In this document: piece by piece, positions 36,414-53,833 of the stretch
How positions within the stretch are numbered: the stretch's first letter is position 1
Layout: every line of letters starts with the position of its first letter
From: a virus
Direction: 5' to 3' (one strand)
Length of the DNA stretch: 60,423 nt
Virus record (IMG/VR): IMGVR_UViG_3300025133_000111
Span: 1 to 60,423 of that record
Notes under the pieces: model-generated
Told to the model about the DNA's origin: nothing
What the model saw: only the letters and a program-made list of their open reading frames with translations
Database searches by the model: none
Made by a program: the position numbers and the translations under genes

Positions 36414-38318
36414 CTATTGAATTTGTTTCTGAAGACTAGCAACGACCGCAACCTGTTGCTTGGCATCTTCCGTTAGAGAGACTTTTATAGACAAGTTGTC
36501 GTTTAAACTCTGTGTCATAGCCGCTGCTAATGCTGCGACAAAATCATCCTTATTTACAAACCCAGCCTCATTGATTGCAGCAATGCTAGCCGCTGTGGCT
36601 GCCGTTTCCGCCGCCAACACAACGATATCAGTATTCGCAGACAATGAAGCTGTGCCTGCCCTGGGTGATTTTGCTCCTGCGGCTGCTGGTGAGGTTTTTG
36701 GATCTGTGCCAGGATCTGTCATACCAAATTTATCTGCTCCAGCTCCAGCCAATGCAAGAACCTTTGTAAGCTGTCTATCATACGCTGCTACGCCATCCTC
36801 TGCATACTTAGCTGCCCTATCAATTGACGGATCTACAAAGCTTTCTCTAAGCAACTCTGCTCCGCCTCTTTGTTTCATTAGAGTTGGTCTGGCAATAACG
36901 GCCAATAGGTTTGAATGTGCAGCCAAATGCCTATTTGCTTTCTCAAATTCATCAAGAGTTAAATCTCTTCCCTCTTTCTCGTGCGTTAGCTGCTTTTCCA
37001 AGGAGGCTTTTGCATCAAGATCTCCAGCTCTAGTTGCATCATCAATCTGGGCTAATAATTCAAGCGTTCTATTTGCAGATGCAGCATCTTTTATTCCAAA
37101 CTGATTCTGCAATAACTGCTGCTGTGTATAAAACTGAGTCTGTAGCTCAGGACTCTTATCTGCCTGTTCAACTGTAACTATATTTCCGCCAGTAAAGGAT
37201 GCGAGAGTATCTCTCATTCCTTTTGCTAACTGTGTAGCCAAACTGGATTGGTCACCCGTTCTATCTGCTTTCAAAACTTCTGCCTGCAAGCCGATAGATG
37301 CGCCCAAAGCTCCACCACCGCCGCTTCCCCCCATCTCCAAACCACCTCTTTGGAACATAATATATGCATTTGCATAATCAGTGGTAAGGCTGGCTAAAGC
37401 ACTAGATAAGCCGGTAGTTAAATCCGTTGCATTTTCAATGCCGAGCCCCATATCCATCATAACTCTGGCAAATCCCTGCAAAAGTGGGACTCCGAAGTCG
37501 GCAGATATGCCAAGCTTAGTGAAGTTGCCAACGGCGCTGTTTAGATTAGAAGAAACATCATCAATGCTAAGGCCGGTCTCTCTGGCTACTCCAGTAAATA
37601 ATCCCATTATTTCCAAAGCATCTTGAGCACTTTTGCCCTGCTTATTTAAAGCTGTGTTTAGAAGGCCAGCGCCTTCCGTTACGGTAAGGCTACTCGCTGA
37701 AGCCAATGCCATCGTAGCAGCCAATAAATTGGTCCTACCAATGCCTGTATCTACAATCTTTCCCTGCTGTTCCAAGGTTATGTTTGTTCTGCCGGTTGCA
37801 TTCGCAAATGCAATCATTTCATCACGAGTTAAATGAAGTGCCCTAGCAAATGGGCTCATGGTTTCGGCTTTCATTACATCTGCAAATACAAATGCCTGTT
37901 CAATGGTGCCTCCGAACCTCTTATTTAAATCGAAAACTCCATCAGCGAAGCTTCTCACATCTCGCGAGGGAGCGTCGAAGAGATTAAAAGCCAGCTCTAA
38001 AGCATCACTGGCAACTCCTATGAATGTATCTAGAACATCTACGCTAAACCCTATATTCTTACCAAGGCCCTCAAAGAGTGGGCCTAGTGCGGGAGTCGCA
38101 GATAATATTGAAGTTACCGCAGTAACTCCACCTTTAAGTGCCGAGGTCAGTCTTAGGGCAGACGTTTCAAGGTCCCCAAAAGCATTAGTTATGCCACCTA
38201 CTTCTTTTGTAGTTTGTGATCCTAAGCGAGACAGACGCTCGATAGAGGAGGCAGCTTCAGTTAGTGCTTTAGACGTAGCATCAGCATCCGCTGTAATCTC
38301 TTTTAATTTATCGCCCAT
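36414..38318 (-). CDS. Tail tape measure protein candidate (634 aa)
   Basis: The gene immediately follows the frameshifted tail assembly chaperone, where the tape measure protein is nearly always found. The N-terminal 60 residues are helical with heptads (ATSKALTEAASSIERLSRL), and the rest is rich in Ala, Gly, Thr and Leu with tape-measure-like helical segments, including MSPFARALHLTRDEMIAFAN and DDVSSNLNSAVGNFTKLGIS. At 634 residues it would specify a tail of roughly 95 nm if the usual 1.5 angstrom per residue applies, short next to the giant baseplate genes. No strong transmembrane segment is visible, unlike many tape measures. It starts 3 bases after the chaperone stop without a clear ribosome binding site, suggesting coupling. 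Assignment rests mainly on position and composition. Confidence 0.68.
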   Translation of the reverse strand: MGDKLKEITADADATSKALTEAASSIERLSRLGSQTTKEVGGITNAFGDLETSALRLTSALKGGVTAVTSILSATPALGPLFEGLGKNIGFSVDVLDTFIGVASDALELAFNLFDAPSRDVRSFADGVFDLNKRFGGTIEQAFVFADVMKAETMSPFARALHLTRDEMIAFANATGRTNITLEQQGKIVDTGIGRTNLLAATMALASASSLTVTEGAGLLNTALNKQGKSAQDALEIMGLFTGVARETGLSIDDVSSNLNSAVGNFTKLGISADFGVPLLQGFARVMMDMGLGIENATDLTTGLSSALASLTTDYANAYIMFQRGGLEMGGSGGGGALGASIGLQAEVLKADRTGDQSSLATQLAKGMRDTLASFTGGNIVTVEQADKSPELQTQFYTQQQLLQNQFGIKDAASANRTLELLAQIDDATRAGDLDAKASLEKQLTHEKEGRDLTLDEFEKANRHLAAHSNLLAVIARPTLMKQRGGAELLRESFVDPSIDRAAKYAEDGVAAYDRQLTKVLALAGAGADKFGMTDPGTDPKTSPAAAGAKSPRAGTASLSANTDIVVLAAETAATAASIAAINEAGFVNKDDFVAALAAAMTQSLNDNLSIKVSLTEDAKQQVAVVASLQKQIQ

Positions 38319-38321
38319 AAC

Positions 38322-39253
38322 TTAATCTATATTCTCTTTCGCGATGTTAAGAAGCCCAGCCAAATTCTTTGGCAGACGGACGCTTCTTCCGTCTCTAGCT
38401 CTTTCATTATCATATAAATTAGTATTTTTGTACTTTTCTTTAATAGCCTGAACTATGTGGTCATCCTTGAAGGTTCTGTTCAATATTTGCTTCTCGAATT
38501 CCTCATCGTCCATGAATCTCGGATCTTCAGCTGCCTCTCTAGAATCTCGGACCTTCTTAACGGCTTCTGCATTCCAGAATGAAGCAAGATACTCCGTTAT
38601 ACCCAGATCGTAGTCATACTGATCCATCTCATCCTGATAAAGCATTTGAGCATACCAAGACCATTGGTCTTTTGTTATTTCAAGGAACCTTGGGTCGTCT
38701 GACCTGCAGTTCCAGATTTTGCAGAGTTTCCAACGAAGCCTATTTACAGGCTCCGCCGCTATTTTTTTAGTTCTTCGAGCCCAACCTCCTTGCTGGACTC
38801 TGCAACAAGCTCTTCATGAATTCGGTGCAATCTTTCCACCAAAGATATCTGCATATTTAGGACTACATTTAACCTTCTCTGCTCAACTGGCAAATCTTCA
38901 TTATCACTTAGGTCTTCGAGTGGCACTCCATTGATAGTTCTAAGTGCATAAGACATGGTTAATGGCTTAATATCCAGAAGTCTATCAACCTCTTCAGACT
39001 TCATTATATTCTTCATGATTAGTTTCTGCTCGCTAATACTTAAGGTAGATACTTCAAACAAAAATCCATTAATCAATTCCTTTTTGGTTAATTTTCCAAG
39101 AAAGATTAAATCTTTTAAAGAAGAAAGCTTTAGCTTTTTGGGAGCATCCTCAGATTCCTCTTGAGAGCCTGCTGCCAGCTTCTCCATTTCGCTCATTCTC
39201 TCTGCAGCTAAACCTGCTTCCGTTCCCAATACCTTGCCTGATCTTTTTGCCAT
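38322..39253 (-). CDS. Tail assembly chaperone, long form made by -1 frameshift (gpGT-like, about 310 aa)
   Basis: This product is read by ribosomes that slip back one base on the A AAA AAA run at 38768-38762 and continue from ATA at 38762-38760 to the stop at 38322. It joins the 164-residue short form to 146 further residues. The extension begins IAAEPVNRLRWKLCKIW and has a typical chaperone pattern (DPRFLEITKDQWSWYAQML, then YLASFWNAEAV). The coding pattern continues unbroken upstream of the first ATG in this frame (38645), which has no ribosome binding site. This argues that the C-terminal part is made only as a fusion. As in lambda gpG/gpGT, the two forms are expected to bind the tape measure and recruit tube subunits. 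Confidence 0.85.
38734..38770 (-). promoter_or_regulatory. Programmed -1 ribosomal frameshift element
   Basis: On the minus strand the zero frame reads CTA AAA AAA TAG, so the heptamer A AAA AAA (38768-38762) is in the correct register for simultaneous tRNA slippage. Six bases later (TAGCGG) a hairpin begins. The arm CGGAGCCT (38755-38748) pairs with AGGCTTCG (38741-38734) around the loop GTAAAT, giving eight pairs with one G-U. The slippery run, 6-base spacer and stem fit the known architecture, and the zero-frame stop lies directly after the run. Confidence 0.88.
38759..39253 (-). CDS. Tail assembly chaperone, short form (gpG-like, 164 aa)
   Basis: This is the unshifted product, ending LEELKK with a TAG directly behind the slippery run. 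It is helical and highly charged, with no enzyme motif. The start ATG at 39253-39251 has GGAG about 9 bases upstream. The gene lies between the tail tube and the tape measure, the standard place for this chaperone. A strong terminator separates it from the tube gene, so expression should be lower than that of tube and sheath, in line with a catalytic assembly factor absent from the finished virion. Assignment rests on position and the frameshift signal; the sequence itself is not one I recognise. Confidence 0.82.
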   Translation of the reverse strand: MAKRSGKVLGTEAGLAAERMSEMEKLAAGSQEESEDAPKKLKLSSLKDLIFLGKLTKKELINGFLFEVSTLSISEQKLIMKNIMKSEEVDRLLDIKPLTMSYALRTINGVPLEDLSDNEDLPVEQRRLNVVLNMQISLVERLHRIHEELVAESSKEVGLEELKK

Positions 39254-39310
39254 ATTTAAACTCCACTTATGCTGATATAATACTTAATATCTTTTGAACA
39301 TCACCCACAA

Positions 39311-39345
39311 AAAGAAACGCCGCCCAAAAAGAGCGGCGTTTCTTT
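39311..39345 (-). terminator. Rho-independent terminator after the tail tube gene
   Basis: A perfect 13-base inverted repeat (AAAGAAACGCCGC at 39311-39323, GCGGCGTTTCTTT at 39333-39345) surrounds a 9-base loop. On the minus strand the stem is followed by a T-rich tail (TTTCTTTTTG). It lies about 16 bases after the tube stop. Because the stem has a mirror A/T tract it could also act on the plus strand, where no gene needs it. It probably reduces transcription from sheath and tube into the chaperone and tape measure genes. Confidence 0.9.
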
Positions 39346-39360
39346 TAAGATTAAATAATT

Positions 39361-39993
39361 CTAGTAAGCTGCGGAGATTAGTCCCGGGAAATCCAAGGTT
39401 CCTCTTCGCTCGCCAGAATCTGCCGCAGTTTCAACACTATCAATATTCCTACCCGGAATCTCTCTAGCGCCCTGTGTGCCCTGACTTAGAGCAATCGCCT
39501 CACCGGCTCTCGTAGTAGATACATGCTCACAGTTTACGGTTGCATTTTCTGTAATTGTATAGTCAGTTGTAGTATAGCTCTTTCCTAAAGCTGCAAACCA
39601 GCAATTATGGTAAGTCGTTACCACAGCACTGTTTCCATCTCCAGTAAACTTATCAATGACAACTATGTCGAACGGCATTCTCTGTGACTGAATGTTTCTG
39701 AATCCTCTAGAAAAGGCCTCAGGAAGAGATAGTCCATCGAAAACTATTCGGTTAATTGTCAGGCTGAACGTAGCAGAAGACTGAGGAACTATCTCAATTA
39801 ATCCATCAGTTCCGACCTCAGATAGCTGCTTGAGCGATCTTGTCTGACTCTCTTGGAAACTCTGAATCGCGCCAACAGGCTCATTGTTTACATAAACAAT
39901 AATCTGTGTCGATAATCCGGCGCGAGTCCTTCCGCCCGTCTCTGGGGGAGGACTTCCGTCGAATAGAGTTCCTGTACTTGGGTAATCTGCCAT
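39361..39993 (-). CDS. Tail tube protein (gp19-like, 210 aa)
   Basis: This is the major inner tube subunit through which DNA passes. The fold pattern is typical: an N-terminal strand with IIVYVNNEPVGAIQSFQESQ, then RSLKQLSEVGTDGLIEIVP, a short helix at DGLSLPEAFSRGF, and later strands with TYHNCWFAALGKSYTTTDY and an N-A-T-V-N-C motif. Length is close to T4 gp19 (163) with a small extension. It follows the sheath gene by 13 bases with a strong AGGAG before its ATG at 39993, and a terminator follows it. Sheath then tube is a conserved order. Expression is expected to be very high. Confidence is high because order and motif agree. Confidence 0.86.
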   Translation of the reverse strand: MADYPSTGTLFDGSPPPETGGRTRAGLSTQIIVYVNNEPVGAIQSFQESQTRSLKQLSEVGTDGLIEIVPQSSATFSLTINRIVFDGLSLPEAFSRGFRNIQSQRMPFDIVVIDKFTGDGNSAVVTTYHNCWFAALGKSYTTTDYTITENATVNCEHVSTTRAGEAIALSQGTQGAREIPGRNIDSVETAADSGERRGTLDFPGLISAAY

Positions 39994-40006: not shown

Positions 40007-43000
40007 TTAAATGACGCCAACTTCGATATCTATAAAGATATAATTAATGGGGTAAGCCGGAGCAAACTGAAGGAAGACATTGATCTGTCTTGGGTCAACC
40101 TTATCCTGCTCTACTCTAATGTTTTTAAAGCTTGTAACCAAACCTTGACCGACCAGCCCATTCATAATGGTTCTTACTCTTGCGCTCATAAGAATATTCG
40201 TATCTGCGCTCTGAACTCCACCGATAAATGGTCTTAATGAATTTCTGAGAGTCCTCTTTACTGCGTCTCGTATAAAGATGATAGAAATCTCTTCATCCTC
40301 GATAAATCCGGAGGTACTTGTCGTTCTTCCGGCCAAGACTCTTCCTCCTCCAGTAATCGGCTGAAGCAACGTCGCTCCAACTCCACCGAGCTGATTCTGA
40401 ATCGTCGGACTATAGACCTTATCTCTTGTTAGCGAGAATCCAGATAGAGCCTTATCGGTTAGTGGAATTGCCACATTCTGCTTCGCGGATAAGAATCCAG
40501 CAGCTGCTGCTCCCTGATAGAAGCCATGTAAATTGACATTCGTTCCATTCACGTTTCTTACGATAGTGTCTGGATAGAAATAAACTGCACGATTGCTGGT
40601 GTAATTATCACTTAACTTGAAGTTGACAAGATCCTCTACATCTCCGTCTAGGATTTCTTCTGCGTCATCTCCCTGGATTCCTTCGATAATTCCAATATCT
40701 TCAACTGCTATTAAGCTTGTTCCGATAAGTGCTGCTGGAGTAACTCCCATCTGGGCTCCGATGAATGCAACCCTTTCCTTTCGGTTAGCGACCGAACTCA
40801 TATTTTCGCAGTGATTTACAGTCGCTCTAAAGATTGAGGAAATTGCCTGATTCGGAAGCGGAACAATGATCTGTGCCTCAGCAGCCTCTAGTGACTCAAG
40901 AGCATTAAACCAATTCGTATCGAAGAAGTCTGCATCATTCTCATCAATGTAGGAAATCTTGAGACCATCACCAGCCTGTATGACTCCACTAGAAACCAAG
41001 TCACTATGTAGAAGCAGAAGCGCATCATCCGCATTTGAATCAGTCGGATCCTTTATGAAGAACTGAACATCAGCATAAGATCCCTGGAGACTTAGAGGCG
41101 AACCATTCTCTGCTTCAACTAGAACCAAGGAATCATCAGTTATTGATGTTATGCTTAACTCAACAGACGGCGTTGGTAGGACGGATCCAAACAACTGGAA
41201 CGAAATATCCGCTACAGAGGTATAGACTGTGCCAGAAGTGGCATTTTCCATGCTTGATATAACAATTACGTTTCCTACATCTTCTCCATCAAAATCTATT
41301 TCCGGAGTTGAGAAGTATTCGTCTCCCGATTCGGTATCGAGAATTCCTTCGTCTCCATTTCCGACCACCTCTAATGCGGCGTCAACAATGGTGTAGGCAA
41401 AAGCGTTATCAGAACTATCAATCCACTGACCCTGCTGAATATCAGTCGAAAGCTGTGAATTATAGAAATCAACCTTGTTCGGGAAGACCTGAGTTTCGTC
41501 TCCATCTCTTATTATGAAGATATTAACTCTGGTATCAGCATCAGGCTTTCCGTTTCTGAGACCAGTTATCGGCCTTGGGATGGTAAATCTGAGATCATCA
41601 ACCTCACATGCATCAGTGGATAGAGATCCAGAATCGAAGCAGGCAGAGAATCCACCAACGCCCAGTGAATTTCTTTCCTCAAGCAATGTAACAGAGGTTC
41701 TTCGCGGAACCGGAGGCTTACACTGTAAAGCTAAGATTCCCGGCGCACCGTTCTCTAGAACCATCTGAGTTCCCAGAGATAATGTATTAGTTTCGCTTGG
41801 AAGACCATGCTTCTGGAATAAGTCCGAAGCCTCAATGAAGAACTCTGGATCTTCCAAGTCAATAGTAGCTATATACTTGGCTTCGAGAGTATCTCCCGTT
41901 CCAAGAGCACTAGAGCTGACATCAACAAAGAACTTATCACCAACTTCAAAGCTGGTTCCACCCTCTTGAATTCCAAGAAGAAGAATTCCGTTGTTCTCCA
42001 GCAAGTGGAAGGTTAGACCTTCTGCTGCCAGACCCGGCACAGAGGCTCCAGAAGCTTCCTCTAGGTCTTGGAAACCTACAGTTGAATCCTCTAGGTCATA
42101 AAGTCGTACGCGTCTCGTAGACGTGACGCTGCTGATTACGAAGAGCCCACCATCGAAGTCTCCACCGTTGCATATCAATACAGTCTTTCCTACATCCGCG
42201 CTTGAGAAGTTGCCTTCGGAAGCCGGGGCGCCAGTCAAACCATTATGAATAACAGATGGATCATCAATTAAGATATTGGTCGCTCTAATGTCCCAATCGT
42301 AAGTATCATTCTCATCCCAGGCCGGTGAAGCCGGTCCGAGGCTGTCCGTTGTGACGGTAATTGTAGTATCAGTTCCGTCATATGTTATTGTTTCGATCTC
42401 ATGACCGACATATCCATCTATGCACAAGAAGTCGCCCGCCAGAGCCTGTCCCTGACTGACTAAGTCTGCGCCTGGAACGGTGAAGGTATCACTTGTGGTT
42501 AATGTGGCATCACCAGTTCTTAATTCAATATTTCCCTGGGGGAAGTCTGCGACAGAAGCGCTTCCGCTTGCAACAACAACTCCGTCACTGCATTCTGCAA
42601 TGTTTCCGGAGATAGCTCCAGAACCACTTGTGAAATAAGCACTTGAGAATGTAAGAGGATTTCCAAAACTATCATAAAGCTGACCAGAGGTATCTCCGGT
42701 TGCGGTGAATGTTGCCAAACCGGGAATCGGATCTCCGTTTGAATCTCTTACGACACTGACACATCGTATCGTCCAGCGTTCGCTGGAGGCAGAATCGTCA
42801 AGAATATCTAGAGTTAAAAGCGGATCACAAGTAGTGTTTTCAACTAAAACACCAGTTCCTATGTTTCCGGAACCAGCAGAGTAGCCCTTTCCGTCCTGAT
42901 CTCCAATTGAAGCTCCGCGTAATTCAATACGGCCATTAGAGATGTCAAGTCTATAATCGAAAGGAGAAGCAACACCTGAAGCGTCAATAACTTCCTGCTT

Positions 43001-43288
43001 TCCAAATAGTAATGTTCCGTTCAGCCTAAGCTCTGTTCTTCCGCTTATGACGGGAACATTAGATAGTTCAAAAAATCGGCCATCGCCGGACCCAGTCGGG
43101 CTCCAACTTGACTCTCCGTCAGCGCCGTTTCCTGCAGCGGATTGAACGATTGTTTCTTCTCTCAGGCCCTCGCCCAATACAGAAACGACCCTTATTCCGC
43201 CCGGAATAGAAACGCTACGAGATATAACCCTATCTCTTGCAAATGCTCCAGGCTGTATAAAACCCGTAATTCCTGGTATGTTAGCCAT
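40007..43288 (-). CDS. Tail sheath protein with Ig-like inserts (1093 aa)
   Basis: This is the contractile sheath. The N-terminus (GITGFIQPGAFARDRVISRS) and the C-terminal domain (about residues 805-1093) are characteristic: an IFRATVNHCENMSSVANRKE region, PLTDKALSGFSLTRDKVYSP, the helix AVKRTLRNSLRPFIGG, and the closing strands QDKVDPRQINVFLQFAPAYP and YIFIDIEVGVI used for interlocking subunits. T4 gp18 has 659 residues. The extra length lies in the N-terminal half and includes an Ig-like segment near residues 163-270 (DSNGDPIPGLATFTATGDTS), so the contracted sheath should display extra surface domains. GGAG precedes the ATG at 43288. Upstream 43289-43348 is AT-rich and may hold a late promoter, which I could not confirm. 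Confidence 0.9.
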   Translation of the reverse strand: MANIPGITGFIQPGAFARDRVISRSVSIPGGIRVVSVLGEGLREETIVQSAAGNGADGESSWSPTGSGDGRFFELSNVPVISGRTELRLNGTLLFGKQEVIDASGVASPFDYRLDISNGRIELRGASIGDQDGKGYSAGSGNIGTGVLVENTTCDPLLTLDILDDSASSERWTIRCVSVVRDSNGDPIPGLATFTATGDTSGQLYDSFGNPLTFSSAYFTSGSGAISGNIAECSDGVVVASGSASVADFPQGNIELRTGDATLTTSDTFTVPGADLVSQGQALAGDFLCIDGYVGHEIETITYDGTDTTITVTTDSLGPASPAWDENDTYDWDIRATNILIDDPSVIHNGLTGAPASEGNFSSADVGKTVLICNGGDFDGGLFVISSVTSTRRVRLYDLEDSTVGFQDLEEASGASVPGLAAEGLTFHLLENNGILLLGIQEGGTSFEVGDKFFVDVSSSALGTGDTLEAKYIATIDLEDPEFFIEASDLFQKHGLPSETNTLSLGTQMVLENGAPGILALQCKPPVPRRTSVTLLEERNSLGVGGFSACFDSGSLSTDACEVDDLRFTIPRPITGLRNGKPDADTRVNIFIIRDGDETQVFPNKVDFYNSQLSTDIQQGQWIDSSDNAFAYTIVDAALEVVGNGDEGILDTESGDEYFSTPEIDFDGEDVGNVIVISSMENATSGTVYTSVADISFQLFGSVLPTPSVELSITSITDDSLVLVEAENGSPLSLQGSYADVQFFIKDPTDSNADDALLLLHSDLVSSGVIQAGDGLKISYIDENDADFFDTNWFNALESLEAAEAQIIVPLPNQAISSIFRATVNHCENMSSVANRKERVAFIGAQMGVTPAALIGTSLIAVEDIGIIEGIQGDDAEEILDGDVEDLVNFKLSDNYTSNRAVYFYPDTIVRNVNGTNVNLHGFYQGAAAAGFLSAKQNVAIPLTDKALSGFSLTRDKVYSPTIQNQLGGVGATLLQPITGGGRVLAGRTTSTSGFIEDEEISIIFIRDAVKRTLRNSLRPFIGGVQSADTNILMSARVRTIMNGLVGQGLVTSFKNIRVEQDKVDPRQINVFLQFAPAYPINYIFIDIEVGVI

Positions 43289-45007: not shown

Positions 45008-48000
45008 TTATATGGTTTCAATGATATTATTTACTTCTAAGATTCCCGACAGAGTGTTCAACGCGCCATTTTCTTGCATCAAGGAGAAGCCTCCGGGCAG
45101 ATCAATAGATCTCTGACTAATATTTCCAGTAATCAAGATATTCTTGAATGTATTAGTTGTATCGAAATAAATCACTCCTTGCTGATATCCTACTCCATCA
45201 AAGTAACAATCTTGGATTGTAATATTCTGATATGTTCCACCACTATTGTTTCCTATGAAAAAGGGCATCTCATTGATTGCGCCGGTCGCTGCTGCTCCAG
45301 AAACATAATCTGCCGCTGCAATAAAGCGTAGTCCGCTAAACCTAAAGCGAGCCTTTGTAGCTCCCGTCGCAGTTATGTTGTTTGTGACTCGGAACACAGT
45401 TCCTGACTGACCAGCAGCCTGTCCTAAAATTCCTTCAAAAGTTAGATCACTTACGTCTATTCCATAAGTGATTGTGCTGCTTCCGGAGTCAGCTCCGATG
45501 AGAATCATCTCATGCCCCTGGGTGGTTATGGCCGCATTATCAAGAGGAAAAGAGCTGGCTCGTTTAATTATCGAGGTAGGACCTGTTCCGCGTAACTTTA
45601 GATCGAATGTCAACACTAACTTTTCTGTTAACTCATAAGTTCCTTCTTTTACAAATATACCCGGGGTTCCAACGTCAGGAAACATTTTCGAAAACATCTC
45701 TACATACTTCACTGCCTTCTGAACAGTTGTGAAATGTCCAAATCTTGAATCCTTAGAGACCGTTACATCTGATATAAATTTATAATCAAGATGATCAACA
45801 AATAATCTTAAATCTGTAATTTCTAAAGTTGATAATTCTACATATGCTAGGTGGGCAATGTTCTGAGTATAAAATGGAGAAATATAATTTACTCCAGCAT
45901 CTGGGTCAATTTCATTTCCAATTACGATGCAGCCTTCGGCATTTAAGCCTATGTAGAAATTGGTTGTAGGACCATTGGTATGTCTATAAACTAACCCTGT
46001 ATCTCCGAGATATTCTATTCTGATTCCATTTACAAGACCAACTCCTGGGTCGATACTTAGAGTTGAAGTTCCATCTCCATTATCTACAACGGATTCTACA
46101 CTAATTCCTCTGATTAAACCACTTCCTCGTAACTCATTTCTTGGCCCTTGAATATATCTCTCTATAAAGGATGATGATATAATTGTGTCATCAGTTGTGC
46201 CGGTAGACCTCTTATCGGTTGTATTTAGCGCGCCTTCTCCTCCAAGTCCAGCGTCTGGGTCCTCAATTACAATTCCAAATTCCGGAGAAAATATTGTCCT
46301 ACAAAGATGAAGGGCAGAGGATGGAAGCTCTCCAAATCCGAATATTGAAGATGTCAGATCACTTATGCTAATTGCAGGAATAGACTCATTTGGAACAAAT
46401 ACACTTAAAATAATGTAGTTCATTCCATCATTTGAGAAAATTTTATACTCACCGGTACTTCCGACAAAGACTTCTGGGCTTGCAATCCCTGTGGGCTCCT
46501 GTTTTATTGTTGCCATCCCAGAGGTGTCAACCTTTAGGGTAAACTCTTGACCATCACTAATAAATCCTCGGGAAACATCTTTAACTACTGCATAGAAGTT
46601 CGCAATAGACATGTGCCCGATTATGTCAAGCCTTCTCTTAAAGTGTATATTCGCATCTTCATCGGCAAACACATCAAGAACCATAAGGCCATCAAGCGTT
46701 ACGAAGTTTAGCTCTGATATCGGGGCCCCAGATCTCAAGATGAAGATCCTAGAAGTGCTCGACAGAGTTCCTTGAAGAGTTGTTGTAAAGTCTAGAGTCA
46801 GTCTAGCTGCCTCAACAGTTCTGATCGAGTAGGTTCCATCGTCAGAGGAGGAAGAGGAGCCATCAATTACGACCAAGTCTCCTGCTCTAATTCCGCTAGT
46901 AATAAAGTTAGTTGTTCCCTTGGAATTTAACTCTAAAGTTCCAGATCCAATTGATATAGCTTCTGAATTATAGGTAATTACTTTTCCAAAATCATCTATG
47001 AGTTTTCCATTAATATGGATAGAGTTACCAAAAGAGCCCTTGACTAGTCTATCCTGAATGTATGACAAGCCCATTGCTGCCGCTGCGTCTCCAGATGATG
47101 CAGCAACTATCTTTAGACTTCTAGCTCTTATATCATCAGCATGATTTGGAACATTATGTGATAATGCTAGCTCATAACAGTTTAGTGCTTTCAGTTTGTA
47201 TGCAAAAAAGTTTAATTTATTTTCCGCACAATACTGGTTGATCGTGGCGATGACAATATCGAGAGACTGTACTGCATAGCTAGAGTTTATAATATCGATT
47301 TCATAAGTAGAGCCTTCATCTACTTGGATAGCTAATGTATCTGCTGTTCCACTTGCTATATTTTCAGGTCTAGCTCCGGAAGAAATAATTGTAGCAGAGT
47401 TTGGAAGACACACTTGGATAGTTGGTGAATTGCTAAATCCGAATCTTGGCCGAACAGCGCAATTAAGAGCATTCTCATTATATGTTGAGTATATACTCTT
47501 TTTTATCCTACCATTAGTTCCAACAGTTAAAGCATTCTTTGGGCCACCATATATTTCAATCTGACTAAGATTTCCAGAGAGATCAAGAGTAACTGAGGAT
47601 ATAAGATAGTCAGCATTATCTGAATCATTGGGAGCATTTAAGATTTCTAATACATCAAATTCTTTTATTTCAGAAATAACGGCGGGAGAGCCGCCAAAGG
47701 AGATGATCATCTTTGACTCACCAGTCGGCGGAGAAAAGGAGATTGCCGAAGAATTAACCAATATAGAGCCAGAATCTATTCCCTCATAGGCATCAACAGT
47801 ATCTCCGGTTCGAATAATTCCATTTGAATTTAAATTCAAAGTAGACTTTCTTAGTCCAACTCCCGCAATGTTCCCCAAATCATCTATAGCTCCCTGTACA
47901 TCATCAGATAGAACAATATCAGAAGTCTCAGAATTGTCATAATAAAGCTGATCAGCCTTATGAGCGTTATTAGATGAGGATACATTTGCTCCGGTAAAGT

Positions 48001-48562
48001 TTATGTGAGCATTATATAAAAGCTCCAAGGCAGCCTGAACCGTTCCCGAGCTTAATGACAAAGTTGCAACAGCTGAAGCAACAGAGTCAGCAGAAACAAC
48101 CGAAATCGCCTGCGCTTTATGTCTATTTATTGCTTGCGGATGAATATGAGCTGCTAAAATTTGGTTTAGCTCATCGAGCGCATCTATAAATAGCCCTATC
48201 TTGTTATCTAAGACAGAAATTTCATTCTGAAGAAGCTGAGTTGGATAATTAAGGCGAAGTTTTGTCTCGGCTATAGCTGCTGTTTTCGAAACATCTTCAT
48301 TCGTTATTGGACCAGATAAGATTCCAGCCCTATCAAGAGCTGATCCAATAATGTTTCCATTCTCATCTAATAGGTTTCCAAGTCTTGCCGCAACGGTATT
48401 CCCAACAGCTCCCTGAGGGTTTATTCCGAGAGTTCTTTCTATGTTGAAAACTGCAGATCTAATGCTATTTAAAACATCAGAACCAATTTCCGTTATATTA
48501 TCTCTTATGGTAGGGATTTCTACAGAGGTATCAAGCTTCCCTGGATAATTTGATTTAGCCAT
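45008..48562 (-). CDS. Tail fibre, shorter paralogue without chaperone (1184 aa)
   Basis: The first 130 residues closely match the 1753-aa fibre gene upstream, with a shared start (MAKSNYPGKLDTSVEIP) and shared KTAAIAETKLRLNYPTQLLQ. This is presumably the baseplate attachment domain. A second matching region (about residues 830-1000) has SGLIRGISVESVVDNGDGTS and RFGHFTTVQKAVKYVEMFSK. The C-terminal about 180 residues look like right-handed parallel beta helix (repeated N-I-T-I-x-D and F-R-x-S-G-L-x-F rungs). Unlike the paralogue there is no S74 chaperone signature; the end is NTLSGILEVNNIIETI. AGGAA lies before the ATG at 48562. Probably a second fibre or branch with different specificity. 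Confidence 0.72.
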   Translation of the reverse strand: MAKSNYPGKLDTSVEIPTIRDNITEIGSDVLNSIRSAVFNIERTLGINPQGAVGNTVAARLGNLLDENGNIIGSALDRAGILSGPITNEDVSKTAAIAETKLRLNYPTQLLQNEISVLDNKIGLFIDALDELNQILAAHIHPQAINRHKAQAISVVSADSVASAVATLSLSSGTVQAALELLYNAHINFTGANVSSSNNAHKADQLYYDNSETSDIVLSDDVQGAIDDLGNIAGVGLRKSTLNLNSNGIIRTGDTVDAYEGIDSGSILVNSSAISFSPPTGESKMIISFGGSPAVISEIKEFDVLEILNAPNDSDNADYLISSVTLDLSGNLSQIEIYGGPKNALTVGTNGRIKKSIYSTYNENALNCAVRPRFGFSNSPTIQVCLPNSATIISSGARPENIASGTADTLAIQVDEGSTYEIDIINSSYAVQSLDIVIATINQYCAENKLNFFAYKLKALNCYELALSHNVPNHADDIRARSLKIVAASSGDAAAAMGLSYIQDRLVKGSFGNSIHINGKLIDDFGKVITYNSEAISIGSGTLELNSKGTTNFITSGIRAGDLVVIDGSSSSSDDGTYSIRTVEAARLTLDFTTTLQGTLSSTSRIFILRSGAPISELNFVTLDGLMVLDVFADEDANIHFKRRLDIIGHMSIANFYAVVKDVSRGFISDGQEFTLKVDTSGMATIKQEPTGIASPEVFVGSTGEYKIFSNDGMNYIILSVFVPNESIPAISISDLTSSIFGFGELPSSALHLCRTIFSPEFGIVIEDPDAGLGGEGALNTTDKRSTGTTDDTIISSSFIERYIQGPRNELRGSGLIRGISVESVVDNGDGTSTLSIDPGVGLVNGIRIEYLGDTGLVYRHTNGPTTNFYIGLNAEGCIVIGNEIDPDAGVNYISPFYTQNIAHLAYVELSTLEITDLRLFVDHLDYKFISDVTVSKDSRFGHFTTVQKAVKYVEMFSKMFPDVGTPGIFVKEGTYELTEKLVLTFDLKLRGTGPTSIIKRASSFPLDNAAITTQGHEMILIGADSGSSTITYGIDVSDLTFEGILGQAAGQSGTVFRVTNNITATGATKARFRFSGLRFIAAADYVSGAAATGAINEMPFFIGNNSGGTYQNITIQDCYFDGVGYQQGVIYFDTTNTFKNILITGNISQRSIDLPGGFSLMQENGALNTLSGILEVNNIIETI

Positions 48563-48571
48563 TCTTTATTC

Positions 48572-51500
48572 CTATCCGCAATGATATGTGCATCCTACAA
48601 ATGCTTTTCTATAAGTTTGGCCATCATGTTCAAACTCTAAACAATTATACGATTTATTATCTAATTCAAAGTTGCAATCACAAGTTATCTTTGCAACAGT
48701 ATAATTATGGAGCAAACCTCCATCTTGCTTCATTCCGTATCCTGGAATTTCACAGGTTGTAATAAAGTCTCCATTTTCAAGATTTCCATTAATATTAGAT
48801 ATCCAAATTCCGCCTTCACCAACTGCATTGATAATGAGTCTATTATCTTTTTTATCAAAACCAGAAACAAAGGCTCCAACCGAATACTTTCTTGTATCCC
48901 CATCATCCTCTATATCAGAGATAACTCCATAGACCTTCTTGTCGTATCTATCTCTGGACAAATCAACCATCGGCAAGGCTTCATTTATTGATGCCTTCTG
49001 AGAGCCTTTTAGGTTTTTATAAATTCCTAACGATGAAACAATAAGTCCTATATTTTTTGGGTCCTTAAGTCTTTCGTCTGAATCAGATCTATGTTGCCCG
49101 GTAAAGTCTAGGTCATCAACGCCAGCTCCTGTGGCGAGAATCCAAGCCTTAGGAGTGTAGGTTGTTGGCGCACCAGTCTCTCTGTTGGCGGTAAACTCAA
49201 AATATAAAGCATCGACGCCAGAGCCACGATAATAAATGGAACAACCCTTTTCGGCTGAGGCCGGCAAGACATCGACCAATTCTAATCCGACTCCCCTTGG
49301 CTCTGCGCCCGGAAGTAACAGAATCGGATCCTGCATTATAACGAATTTAGATTTAGGCTGAGCTTCTCCGATGCCAATACTGCCATCATAACCTATAGAT
49401 AGTCTTGTGGCAGCAACTAACGATGGAGCCGGATATCCCGTTGAAGTTGGGGCTGCTGCATCTTTCGTTTTAAAATGAAGGTTGCCCTTGTCAGCATCTA
49501 CTCTTTCGAGAGTAATCGCTGCCGCTGGCCCATCTATAAAAGTAAAGCTTCCCTTAACTATGAATCCTATACCTACTTCTGTTCCGTTGGTATCTCCGTT
49601 TTGTCCTAATAGCAAATGATGATTGGCGATAGTAGAGCCGTCAGCTGCATCTGCTGTTCCGGAGGCCGTCTGTACTAGCAGAGGATTTCCGGGGAATTGG
49701 CTTCCAATTCCAACGTATTGAGTTATCGGAGCAACAGTAAGGCCCGCTATTCCATTTGTAATAATATCTACTCTGTGATTAGAGCTAGAGCCTATGATGG
49801 TATTTGCATTGACGCCGTCATCTGTTGCTTGGAAGCGACCAATAACTTTATTAGAATTCGCGTTTGAGCCAACAGATACGACTGAATACTCAATAACACT
49901 GGTATCGAAGTCAGTTATCGCTAATGTCTTTGGAATATCTCCAAAGTGTGCAATAGAGGTTGTCGCAGTAGTGCCCTCTCTGAAAACTGTAAGATCTGGG
50001 TAACTAGGCTTAACCGAAAGACCAACGCCGATTCTTCCACCTACAGAAAGAGATCTACTTATTCTATCTCCCCACTCATAAACGCCGCCTCCATCAGGAC
50101 TTGGGTCAGATATCGAATCACTACTGTCAGAAGCTGTATTTCCTCTAAATTCAATATTATTATAAAAGGCAGAGCCAACGATATCAAATATATCTCCAGT
50201 TCCAGAAGTATAGATGGCATAATGATTTTCTCCATCAACTACTCCGTCTCCCGACCCACGATATCTGTTGTTAGAAATACTTATATTAAAATGATCTATT
50301 GCGTTATAAGTATTTGTCTTAATGTGAGAGTTTAAAAACTCACAATTAGTTATGCTTATGTTTCCGACCTTAGACCCAGCGGCGGTATCTCGTCCTTGGA
50401 TTAAAACTCCATAATTAAATTCATCAAATCCAGCTTTACCAGATTCATCAAATACAACATTATCGATGTTGATCGAGTTATTTAACTTGGCCGCTCCCGC
50501 CTCAATTGTCGGATCAAGTATCATGATGCCGGATAAATTGAGCTTTAAATCTCGAATATTGATTATTCCAGAAGTCAAAACATCTGCATCACCGTCTGGA
50601 GTAGATGCTACGAGTCCCGCTCCAGCAACATATATCCAGTTGCTCATTTTGGATACGCCAGCGTTATCTCTGCTATCAACAGTTATATCTGCGTCAGTAA
50701 ATGTTCTGACTAGGTCGATAACCGTAGAAGGCCCCTCTCCGACCAAATTTACAGGGAAGTTTAACCAGATTCCGCCATCATAAGCTGGCTGAATATCTGC
50801 AGTTCCCAATGGCGTATATGCAGCAATGGTTGTGCTCATCTCTGTAATGATCTGATGCGTTCCAGACTTTAAGTGTACCGTTGGTACCCCCGCCTTTGGG
50901 AACGCCTGAGAGAACCGCTTGGCGTACTTCAGAGCCTTATTTATATCGGTGAAGTGGCCCATTCCGGGTTGCGGGCTTACCGTAATTGAATTCAGAATTC
51001 TTAGATCTAGATTATCAATAAATAATCTAAAATCAATTATATCAATTGTTACTCCATCATTTTCTGCAGATGCCAAAATAGCATAGTCATATGGACTAAA
51101 AGGACAATCACACGCGGCAGGATCAGGCGCTCGGAATATAACCTCTCCCCATTGGTTTATTCCAACATAAAATTTATCTACAACAACTGGTGGGCCGCCA
51201 GTTTCTATATCTGTTATATAACTGGATACTTCATCTAGCTCAAATCGCTTACCATGCACATAGCAAACTCCAGAAGATATGGATACAGTATATGTTGTGC
51301 CGTTATCTATAACTTGAGTTACCTCTAAGCCTCTAATAACACCATTTGATCTCGTTTCTAAGAGCGGAACTTGACAAAGTCCAGAAAGAACGTCTGTACC
51401 TATATCTTTTATTCCAATAGAACCCTTTCTTAGTTTTCCAAACGGCCTAGGATAATCTTGTCCAGCTCCAGCAATTCTGGAATTACCAGCCTCATACAAA

Positions 51501-53833
51501 ACTCTTCCTAATAGAAGGTTTTCTTCTTCATTGGGCCCGGAATAGCCAAACAGACTTATCGAGAACCCGGTTCCGTCTGCAACAATTTTTGATGCAATTT
51601 GATCAGAATCTTTAATGAAAACAGTTATTCCTAAATTATATTTTCCAGAATAAAGAGTTACATATTCCGACTTAACATTTATAAGGCTAAAAACCTCTCC
51701 AGAGTCAAGGGATAATCCAATTTCTAGGTCAGTTGGATCTGGTGATATCTTTTGAACGGATAAAGTTCCGGTATTAGTACTCGTATAAGGAGTTACATCT
51801 CCTTTAAAATCTGAAACCGCAACCAAGCTCTCTGAGCCAAAATAGGTTTCATATCCATACGTCAATCTTTCCTTATAAAATATTGAACGATTCGTTAAGT
51901 CCATAAAAACATCTACAATAGAAGCAGATGATGCACCGCCAGGAAGAACTTGGAATGCCATTTCATTTAGAGATACTGAATTTCTATATATTGTGAATTC
52001 GGTGCTATCGCTAGTCACACTTGCCCACTGATTACTTGGAAGTTGCGTTCTGTCCACGGTAAAGGAGGATGAGTTTACATCCAAAATAACATAAGTTCCG
52101 TCATCACCAACTGACTCTGTTATTACAAGAATATCTCCATCTCTCACCCCAAGCTCTTCAAAGTTTACAGTGCCTGAAGAGACAGTTGCCGTGCCAGACA
52201 GGAGGGTTAAGCCTAGCGCAGAAAGTTTGGTGCCCAATCCTGCAAATGCTTTCCCCTGAATGAGGTATTGCGATCCTATTTCCGCTGTTACGGTTATATC
52301 TTCAAAGTTTGCAAATCCAACAGAGTCTAGTGCTCCATCTGATCCTCTTGAGATTTTAATTGTGTATTCTTTTGAAGAAGAACTAGGCACAGAATGTACA
52401 AGCGCTATTTCAGAAGAATTTTTCTCATCAAAATCCACTCGGTAAGCGGTTACGCTTAATCTATTTTCTGCAAACTGTTCATTGAAAGCTTTTATAATAG
52501 AATCAATAGTCTGACTTCCGCCAGCCAAGTTTAACAATCCATCATAAAGATCTATTTGGACATTGGTAGCTCCGTCTATAGATATATTTACAAACCTATT
52601 GGTTAGGCTGATTTCAGATGGGCGAATTCCGGTAGAAATTATATTTGCAGAATCTGGGTTGGAAATCTGTATGACATCTGCATTACTAAAGGAAATAGCA
52701 CCAGAAGATTCATATTCTCTTGCGGCCAAGAGCAGACCAACAGGCTCTGATTCTCTATTTTTATTTCTAAAAATCTGGGCAGTAGTTCCGCTTTCAGATG
52801 TAGCAGGGAGGAATCCATATATATCAACACTTTCTAGTGTTGCTCCTCCAACAGCTAAATTTGCTCTTAAGATCTGAAAAGAAAGAGTTTCGCTCGAAGT
52901 TGTTATCTCTAGAATATCAGAAGTCTCTACCGACAAAGCTGGTGCCGCCGGAGAGTCTAAGAATAATACATTAGATATAAAGCTATCAGCGTCAGTGCTT
53001 GATTTCAAGTATGAAACATCACCAGCGGGCAAAAGGGAGATTCCCTTTGTCAACACCGAAGGTCCGGTGAGCAGATTTGACCTCAAAATTGAATTTGCAT
53101 GATGCAAGTTCTGATGTCCATCAACCTGTCCGACAACTAGGTCTAAAACTTCTTCGATTACCTCTTGGACATCATCGCCATCAATAAGGGCGGCAACATT
53201 TTCATTATCAAAATAAATCTGCTCGCTAGTGTGCGAGCGGTTTGTTTCTGAAATATCAGACCCATCAAAATTTATGTGAGAATCATATATTTGTTCAAAA
53301 GCTTTTTGAGCAGTCACCTCTACAGAGGATGTAATTCCGATGGGAGATGGGGCGTTTAGAATTTCAGCAATAGTTACCGCTATCCCTCTGTGCCGATTTT
53401 TGGCAGACGGATGAACGTGGGCGGCAAACAAAGCTGACAGCTCAGACACAACTTTCTCTATCAAGTCTAGCTGAGAAATTAATTGAGAGATTTCATCCTG
53501 AAGAAGCTGAGTGGGATAGTTAAGGCGAAGCTTTGTCTCAGCTATAGCGGCCGTTTTTGATACATCTTCATTGGAAATGGGTCCAGATAGCAACCCAGCT
53601 TTGGATAAAGCTTCAGATAAGATATTTCCATTTCCATCAAGAGCTTTTCCGATTCTTCCGGCAACAGAATTGCCTACAGCGCCCTGCGGATTAATACCAA
53701 GGGTTCGTTCAATCTGAAAGACAGCAGATCGAAGGCTGTTAAGCACATCCGATCCAATCTCTACAATATTATCTCTAACAGCAGGGATTTCTACAGACGT
53801 ATCTAATTTATTTGGATAATTTGACTTTGCCAT
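48572..53833 (-). CDS. Tail fibre with S74-type intramolecular chaperone signature (1753 aa)
   Basis: The N-terminal attachment domain (residues 1-135) matches the next gene. A long beta-rich shaft follows. A conserved block (residues about 829-1000) has NGVIRGLEVTQVIDNG and GMGHFTDINKALKYAKRFSQ. Near residue 1583 the sequence SDERLKDPKNIGLIV resembles the start of the Peptidase_S74 chaperone of endosialidases, which trimerises fibres and usually cleaves itself off. After it, residues about 1630-1753 form another module with VYGVISDIEDDGDTRKYSVG and NGDFITTCEIPGYGMKQ, ending in a Cys-rich tip (CTYHCG). I suspect this module also works in folding or autocleavage, but it is not standard S74. 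GGAA precedes the ATG at 53833. Confidence 0.78.
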   Translation of the reverse strand: MAKSNYPNKLDTSVEIPAVRDNIVEIGSDVLNSLRSAVFQIERTLGINPQGAVGNSVAGRIGKALDGNGNILSEALSKAGLLSGPISNEDVSKTAAIAETKLRLNYPTQLLQDEISQLISQLDLIEKVVSELSALFAAHVHPSAKNRHRGIAVTIAEILNAPSPIGITSSVEVTAQKAFEQIYDSHINFDGSDISETNRSHTSEQIYFDNENVAALIDGDDVQEVIEEVLDLVVGQVDGHQNLHHANSILRSNLLTGPSVLTKGISLLPAGDVSYLKSSTDADSFISNVLFLDSPAAPALSVETSDILEITTSSETLSFQILRANLAVGGATLESVDIYGFLPATSESGTTAQIFRNKNRESEPVGLLLAAREYESSGAISFSNADVIQISNPDSANIISTGIRPSEISLTNRFVNISIDGATNVQIDLYDGLLNLAGGSQTIDSIIKAFNEQFAENRLSVTAYRVDFDEKNSSEIALVHSVPSSSSKEYTIKISRGSDGALDSVGFANFEDITVTAEIGSQYLIQGKAFAGLGTKLSALGLTLLSGTATVSSGTVNFEELGVRDGDILVITESVGDDGTYVILDVNSSSFTVDRTQLPSNQWASVTSDSTEFTIYRNSVSLNEMAFQVLPGGASSASIVDVFMDLTNRSIFYKERLTYGYETYFGSESLVAVSDFKGDVTPYTSTNTGTLSVQKISPDPTDLEIGLSLDSGEVFSLINVKSEYVTLYSGKYNLGITVFIKDSDQIASKIVADGTGFSISLFGYSGPNEEENLLLGRVLYEAGNSRIAGAGQDYPRPFGKLRKGSIGIKDIGTDVLSGLCQVPLLETRSNGVIRGLEVTQVIDNGTTYTVSISSGVCYVHGKRFELDEVSSYITDIETGGPPVVVDKFYVGINQWGEVIFRAPDPAACDCPFSPYDYAILASAENDGVTIDIIDFRLFIDNLDLRILNSITVSPQPGMGHFTDINKALKYAKRFSQAFPKAGVPTVHLKSGTHQIITEMSTTIAAYTPLGTADIQPAYDGGIWLNFPVNLVGEGPSTVIDLVRTFTDADITVDSRDNAGVSKMSNWIYVAGAGLVASTPDGDADVLTSGIINIRDLKLNLSGIMILDPTIEAGAAKLNNSINIDNVVFDESGKAGFDEFNYGVLIQGRDTAAGSKVGNISITNCEFLNSHIKTNTYNAIDHFNISISNNRYRGSGDGVVDGENHYAIYTSGTGDIFDIVGSAFYNNIEFRGNTASDSSDSISDPSPDGGGVYEWGDRISRSLSVGGRIGVGLSVKPSYPDLTVFREGTTATTSIAHFGDIPKTLAITDFDTSVIEYSVVSVGSNANSNKVIGRFQATDDGVNANTIIGSSSNHRVDIITNGIAGLTVAPITQYVGIGSQFPGNPLLVQTASGTADAADGSTIANHHLLLGQNGDTNGTEVGIGFIVKGSFTFIDGPAAAITLERVDADKGNLHFKTKDAAAPTSTGYPAPSLVAATRLSIGYDGSIGIGEAQPKSKFVIMQDPILLLPGAEPRGVGLELVDVLPASAEKGCSIYYRGSGVDALYFEFTANRETGAPTTYTPKAWILATGAGVDDLDFTGQHRSDSDERLKDPKNIGLIVSSLGIYKNLKGSQKASINEALPMVDLSRDRYDKKVYGVISDIEDDGDTRKYSVGAFVSGFDKKDNRLIINAVGEGGIWISNINGNLENGDFITTCEIPGYGMKQDGGLLHNYTVAKITCDCNFELDNKSYNCLEFEHDGQTYRKAFVGCTYHCG

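Follow-up and report, generated by a model that had tools for sequence, protein, structure and literature searches.

A tail assembly chaperone pair with a probable programmed −1 frameshift in an uncultivated phage related to Bacillus phage G

Introduction

The tail assembly chaperone of phage lambda is made in a short form, gpG, and a long form, gpGT, by a −1 frameshift late in the chaperone gene, which sits between the genes for the tube and the tape measure protein (PMC5009743). In Bacillus phage G, the frameshift of the chaperone gene has been termed a "signature frameshift", and the products, gp181 and gp182, were not detected by mass spectrometry of the virion (PMC8570332). Both are annotated as tail assembly chaperones, with gp182 entered as a joined coding sequence, and the site reads GAA TTA AAA AAC TAG. 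A description of the frameshift in the clade related to phage G was not found in the open-licence literature.

Here, we show a slippery site, a downstream stem, an open −1 frame and chaperone homology in a viral DNA of 60,423 nucleotides (IMG/VR record IMGVR_UViG_3300025133_000111; this whole stretch is hereafter referred to as the window), and the conservation of these features among relatives. Based on sequence comparison, we put the probability that the locus is a tail assembly chaperone pair with a programmed −1 frameshift at about 95%. Since the lambda-type frameshift has long been known and that of phage G is already annotated, the locus adds a case to a known phenomenon. It places this phenomenon in a broad, uncultivated phage clade, with contigs of up to 340 kb, whose chaperones are missed by most database profiles and are now linked to phage G.

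Results and Discussion

Reading frames and slippery site

The zero frame (38759..39253, minus strand, as are all features described here around the junction) encodes a putative short chaperone of 164 amino acids, comparable to lambda gpG, and its 3' end reads GAA CTA AAA AAA TAG. The heptamer A AAA AAA (38762..38768) lies in the X XXY YYZ register, as a previous reading of the sequence alone had it, and the UAG stop (38759..38761) follows it directly. The −1 frame is uninterrupted through the slippery site and reaches its stop at 38322, so that a single −1 slip would give a fusion protein of 310 amino acids. The extension entered after slippage (38322..38762), which begins ATA GCG GCG GAG and would be the counterpart of lambda T, consists of 146 codons and a stop. 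Its first ATG, GTG or TTG codon is the ATG at 38645, well within a conserved domain. The sequence-only reading, which had described the −1 frame as open to 38322 and without an independent start near its beginning, was correct on both points.

Comparison with phage G and lambda

Both halves of the window protein are homologous to phage G gp181/gp182. Phage G also shifts by −1 and has its stop directly past the heptamer (A AAA AAC TAG), and it has the same neighbours, namely the sheath gp178, the tube-like gp180 and the tape measure protein gp183. The heptamer is A AAA AAA in the window and A AAA AAC in phage G, where the N-terminal part is shorter (115-116 amino acids) and the extension longer (about 250 amino acids). 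The tape measure protein gp183 is far longer than the candidate in the window, and hhalign found no homology between this candidate and the first 1143 amino acids of gp183. Lambda gpG/gpGT and the window share a late −1 frameshift, a position between the tube and tape measure genes, and short and long forms. The lambda heptamer is G GGA AAG and thus differs from that of the window, where, in addition, the stop abuts the slippery site and a stable hairpin comes next. No sequence similarity between the window chaperone and lambda gpG/gpGT was detected.

Identity of the two halves

The predicted structure of the zero-frame product (AF2, pLDDT 81) has its best solved match in the tail assembly chaperone gp13 of HK97 (2OB9), with a Z score of 8.1 over 99 residues, followed by YqbN (3KLU), with 7.4 over 106 residues; the next row stands at 3.9. 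Judged from this model, HK97 gp13 and YqbN appear to share the fold of the zero-frame domain, well above unrelated rows, at sequence identities of 15% and 5%, respectively. The window protein differs from both in having about 40 extra N-terminal residues, which are modelled with low confidence. Its best viral fold matches are phage G gp181 (E 3e-7) and gp182 (E 5e-7), and that of the extension is gp182 (E 2e-3). Profile comparison by hhalign aligned the zero-frame half with gp181 (E 3e-11) and the −1 half with the extension of gp182 (E 1e-8), the latter from the second residue of each. Moreover, of 40 relatives, 17 and 16 have matches to PHROG tail assembly chaperone families; the window's own copy has no PHROG chaperone match. 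A Pfam search of both halves returned no chaperone family, and the extension domain was not found in the bacterial and archaeal genomes searched. The sequence-only reading had doubted that the two proteins resemble known chaperones. Profile and fold comparison resolve this doubt, as they show kinship with chaperones. Gene position, PHROG matches, fold matches and profile homology to phage G, taken together, support the assignment as a tail assembly chaperone.

Gene neighbourhood

The genes are arranged in the order sheath, tube, chaperone and tape measure candidate, so that the chaperone lies between a tube homologue and a tape-measure-like gene. The sheath gene (40007..43288, minus strand; 1093 amino acids) matches phrog_2839, tail sheath, with an E value of 1e-14. 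This similarity is confined to the C-terminal ~180 of the 1093 residues, and the ORF at this place in one relative (L012) is shorter, with 765 amino acids. The upstream neighbour of the chaperone, the tube-position gene (39361..39993, minus strand; 210 amino acids), matches phrog_985, virion structural protein, and is a homologue of phage G gp180 (E 3e-19). The downstream neighbour (36414..38318, minus strand) encodes a candidate tape measure protein of 634 amino acids. Relatives have a gene of the same family at the same position, coding for 589-840 amino acids where complete. Pfam TMP_3 matches four of nine members of this family, with a best E value of 6e-4, and does not match the copy in the window. 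As this match is weak and the assignment partly positional, the product is likely, but not firmly, a tape measure protein. A match to the PHROG 167 tape measure family in the window's record (E 3e-7) was discarded because all 14 of 14 control genomes matched as well.

Upstream of the chaperone gene, in the gap that separates it from the tube-position gene, is a terminator-like hairpin, AAAAGAAACGCCGC / GCGGCGTTTCTTTT (about 39307-39344, minus strand). Of 21 relatives checked, 17 have T-tailed hairpins of varied sequence in this gap; a consensus terminator scanner did not list the hairpin at 39307-39344. Such a hairpin would possibly lower expression of the chaperone and tape measure genes relative to that of the tube.

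Conservation of the site

Viral contigs were searched with the extension and its alignment, which yielded 80 loci. The distinct junctions among them number 54 and are not fully independent: over the match, one locus (L019) does not differ from the window, and some others are closely related. A canonical heptamer, in register and within the overlap of the frames, was found in all 54 distinct junctions as well as in the window, and only A AAA AAA, A AAA AAC, A AAA AAG and U UUA AAA are used. It precedes the reference point by 9 or 12 nt in every junction; where U UUA AAA is the only heptamer, the site is one codon further upstream. The same four heptamers occur in register at only 9 of 7418 upstream codon positions of the same zero frames, which argues that their presence at the site is not due to chance. 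The zero-frame stop is always 0 or 1 codon past the heptamer, and conservation of the −1 peptide begins at the junction. The sequence-only reading had named comparison of the site in related phages as a check, and the loss of both the A run and the open −1 frame in relatives as evidence against itself; no such loss was seen among the 54 junctions. Comparison with relatives thus supports a programmed −1 frameshift, and chaperone homology and gene order uphold its earlier placement in a tail assembly chaperone. As judged from these contigs, the frameshift signal has been kept throughout a large group of uncultivated phages, often of large size, that are relatives of Bacillus phage G. What is less usual is that heptamers and stems interchange within one family and that the zero-frame stop is fixed at the slippery site.

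Stimulatory hairpin

The putative stimulatory hairpin, CGGCGGAGCCUG-UAAA-UAGGCUUCGUUG (38731..38758, minus strand), was assessed by minimum free energy, shuffling, synonymous recoding and covariation. In the minimum-energy fold, the arms 38758-38747 and 38742-38731 form a stem of 12 pairs, of which four are G-U. The eight-pair hairpin with a 6-nt spacer described in the sequence-only reading is present and corresponds to the core of this stem. The 12-pair stem begins 3 nt past the heptamer and the core stem 6-7 nt past it, the latter within the spacing of roughly 5-9 nt expected of a stimulatory structure. Folding of the RNA, a check that the reading had also named, gave −17.4 kcal/mol, compared with a mean of −8.6 for shuffled sequences (z −4.1), and none of 200 shuffles folded as well.

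The stem overlaps the conserved −1 peptide EPxxRLRW, and protein conservation alone could therefore mimic a conserved stem. As a control, the −1 peptide was recoded with synonymous codons using the codon usage of each locus itself. The real stems fold better than their recodings, with a mean z of −3.0 and p<=0.05 in 78% of loci; the z for the window stem is −4.0. For the Glu of EP, whose codon is part of the 5' arm, GAG is used 40 times and GAA a single time. Covariation, scored on 50 junctions aligned without gaps, came to 0.204, compared with 0.153 for shuffled alignments, with none of 500 shuffles reaching the real score; 75.5% of cells pair, against at most 53.5% when slid. Pairs changed on both sides give a less clear signal, the observed number being reached by 40 of 500 shuffles. 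Two relatives (L077 and L083) lack GGAGCC/GGCTCC and have another strong stem instead, in which AGCTCCC pairs with GGGAGCT. This substitute (L077:2992-3030 and L083:2992-3030) has a larger loop and lies at nearly the same distance from the heptamer. A significant stem was not found in L057, L059, L062, L092 and some other relatives, so that a strong hairpin is common rather than universal.

An internal Shine-Dalgarno sequence was considered as a further stimulator and rejected. Across 53 loci, anti-Shine-Dalgarno pairing is no stronger than in synonymous recodings (mean z −0.03), and it does not qualify as a conserved element. The window has a perfect Shine-Dalgarno-like AAGGAGGT at 38784-38791 (minus strand), ~15-16 nt upstream of the heptamer.

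Proposed mechanism and alternatives

In the mechanism that we propose, most ribosomes would read CUA AAA AAA and stop at UAG, releasing the short chaperone of 164 amino acids. A minority would pause at the hairpin while two tRNA-Lys slip one base back on A AAA AAA, and translation would continue in the −1 frame to give the rarer long form of 310 amino acids. We infer slippage at this heptamer from sequence conservation and a minority long product by analogy with lambda. By analogy with lambda, many short copies would coat the tape measure protein, as gpG does, and the extra domain of the long form would recruit tube subunits, as gpGT does; this division of labour is carried over from the lambda pair.

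The two frames could also be joined by transcriptional slippage, in which RNA polymerase stutters on the A run and produces mRNAs of altered length. The A7 run of the window is uninterrupted and a run of this length is within the range that permits polymerase slippage. However, the arrangement persists in relatives with U UUA AAA G, which hold only four A, and in those with A AAA AAC, which hold six, and the four-A sites in particular disfavour this explanation. Furthermore, polymerase slippage needs neither codon register nor a synonymously constrained downstream stem, both of which are conserved, and we regard it as very improbable. Less probable still is that the frames are two separate genes, the downstream one being translated through reinitiation or an internal start codon. 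The −1 frame does have an ATG at 38645, but this codon is about 113 nt past the stop and inside EPxxRLRW...QWxWYA, so that a protein started there would lose its most conserved domain, and the −1 frame lacks any ATG, GTG or TTG before residue 15 in 35 of the 54 junctions. An assembly or sequencing indel splitting one continuous gene, which the error-prone nature of homopolymers such as this A run might suggest, can be practically dismissed, as 54 distinct junctions from many metagenomes, and the isolate phage G as well, show this split, with no continuous-frame relative among those junctions.

Stop codon coupling

A programmed −1 frameshift remains the preferred reading, and the position of the stop may bear on how it is regulated. 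TAG is the stop at 24 of 54 junctions, compared with 39 of 210 other ORFs, and is thus over-represented; TGA is never used at the junctions. The fixed position of the stop 0-1 codons past the heptamer, phage G included, together with the excess of TAG, raises the idea that competition with release factor may tune frameshifting. We hold it only tentatively, as a rather unlikely explanation, that frameshifting is so tuned and that the chaperone ratio depends on host termination efficiency; if true, tail assembly itself would depend on that efficiency. The TAG bias could instead come from the coding needs of the −1 frame. The tight, invariant coupling of stop and heptamer, with its excess of TAG, is the one feature that may repay experiment. 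Among the relatives, heptamer, stop and stem vary while the function is conserved, and comparison across this set can serve both annotation and the study of how frameshift signals evolve.

Elsewhere in the window, two adjacent large ORFs (45008-48562, 1184 amino acids, and 48572-53833, 1753 amino acids) share the near-identical N-terminus MAKSNYP(G/N)KLDTSVEIP...RDNI.EIGSDVLNS and are apparently a tandem duplication of which the remainder has diverged.
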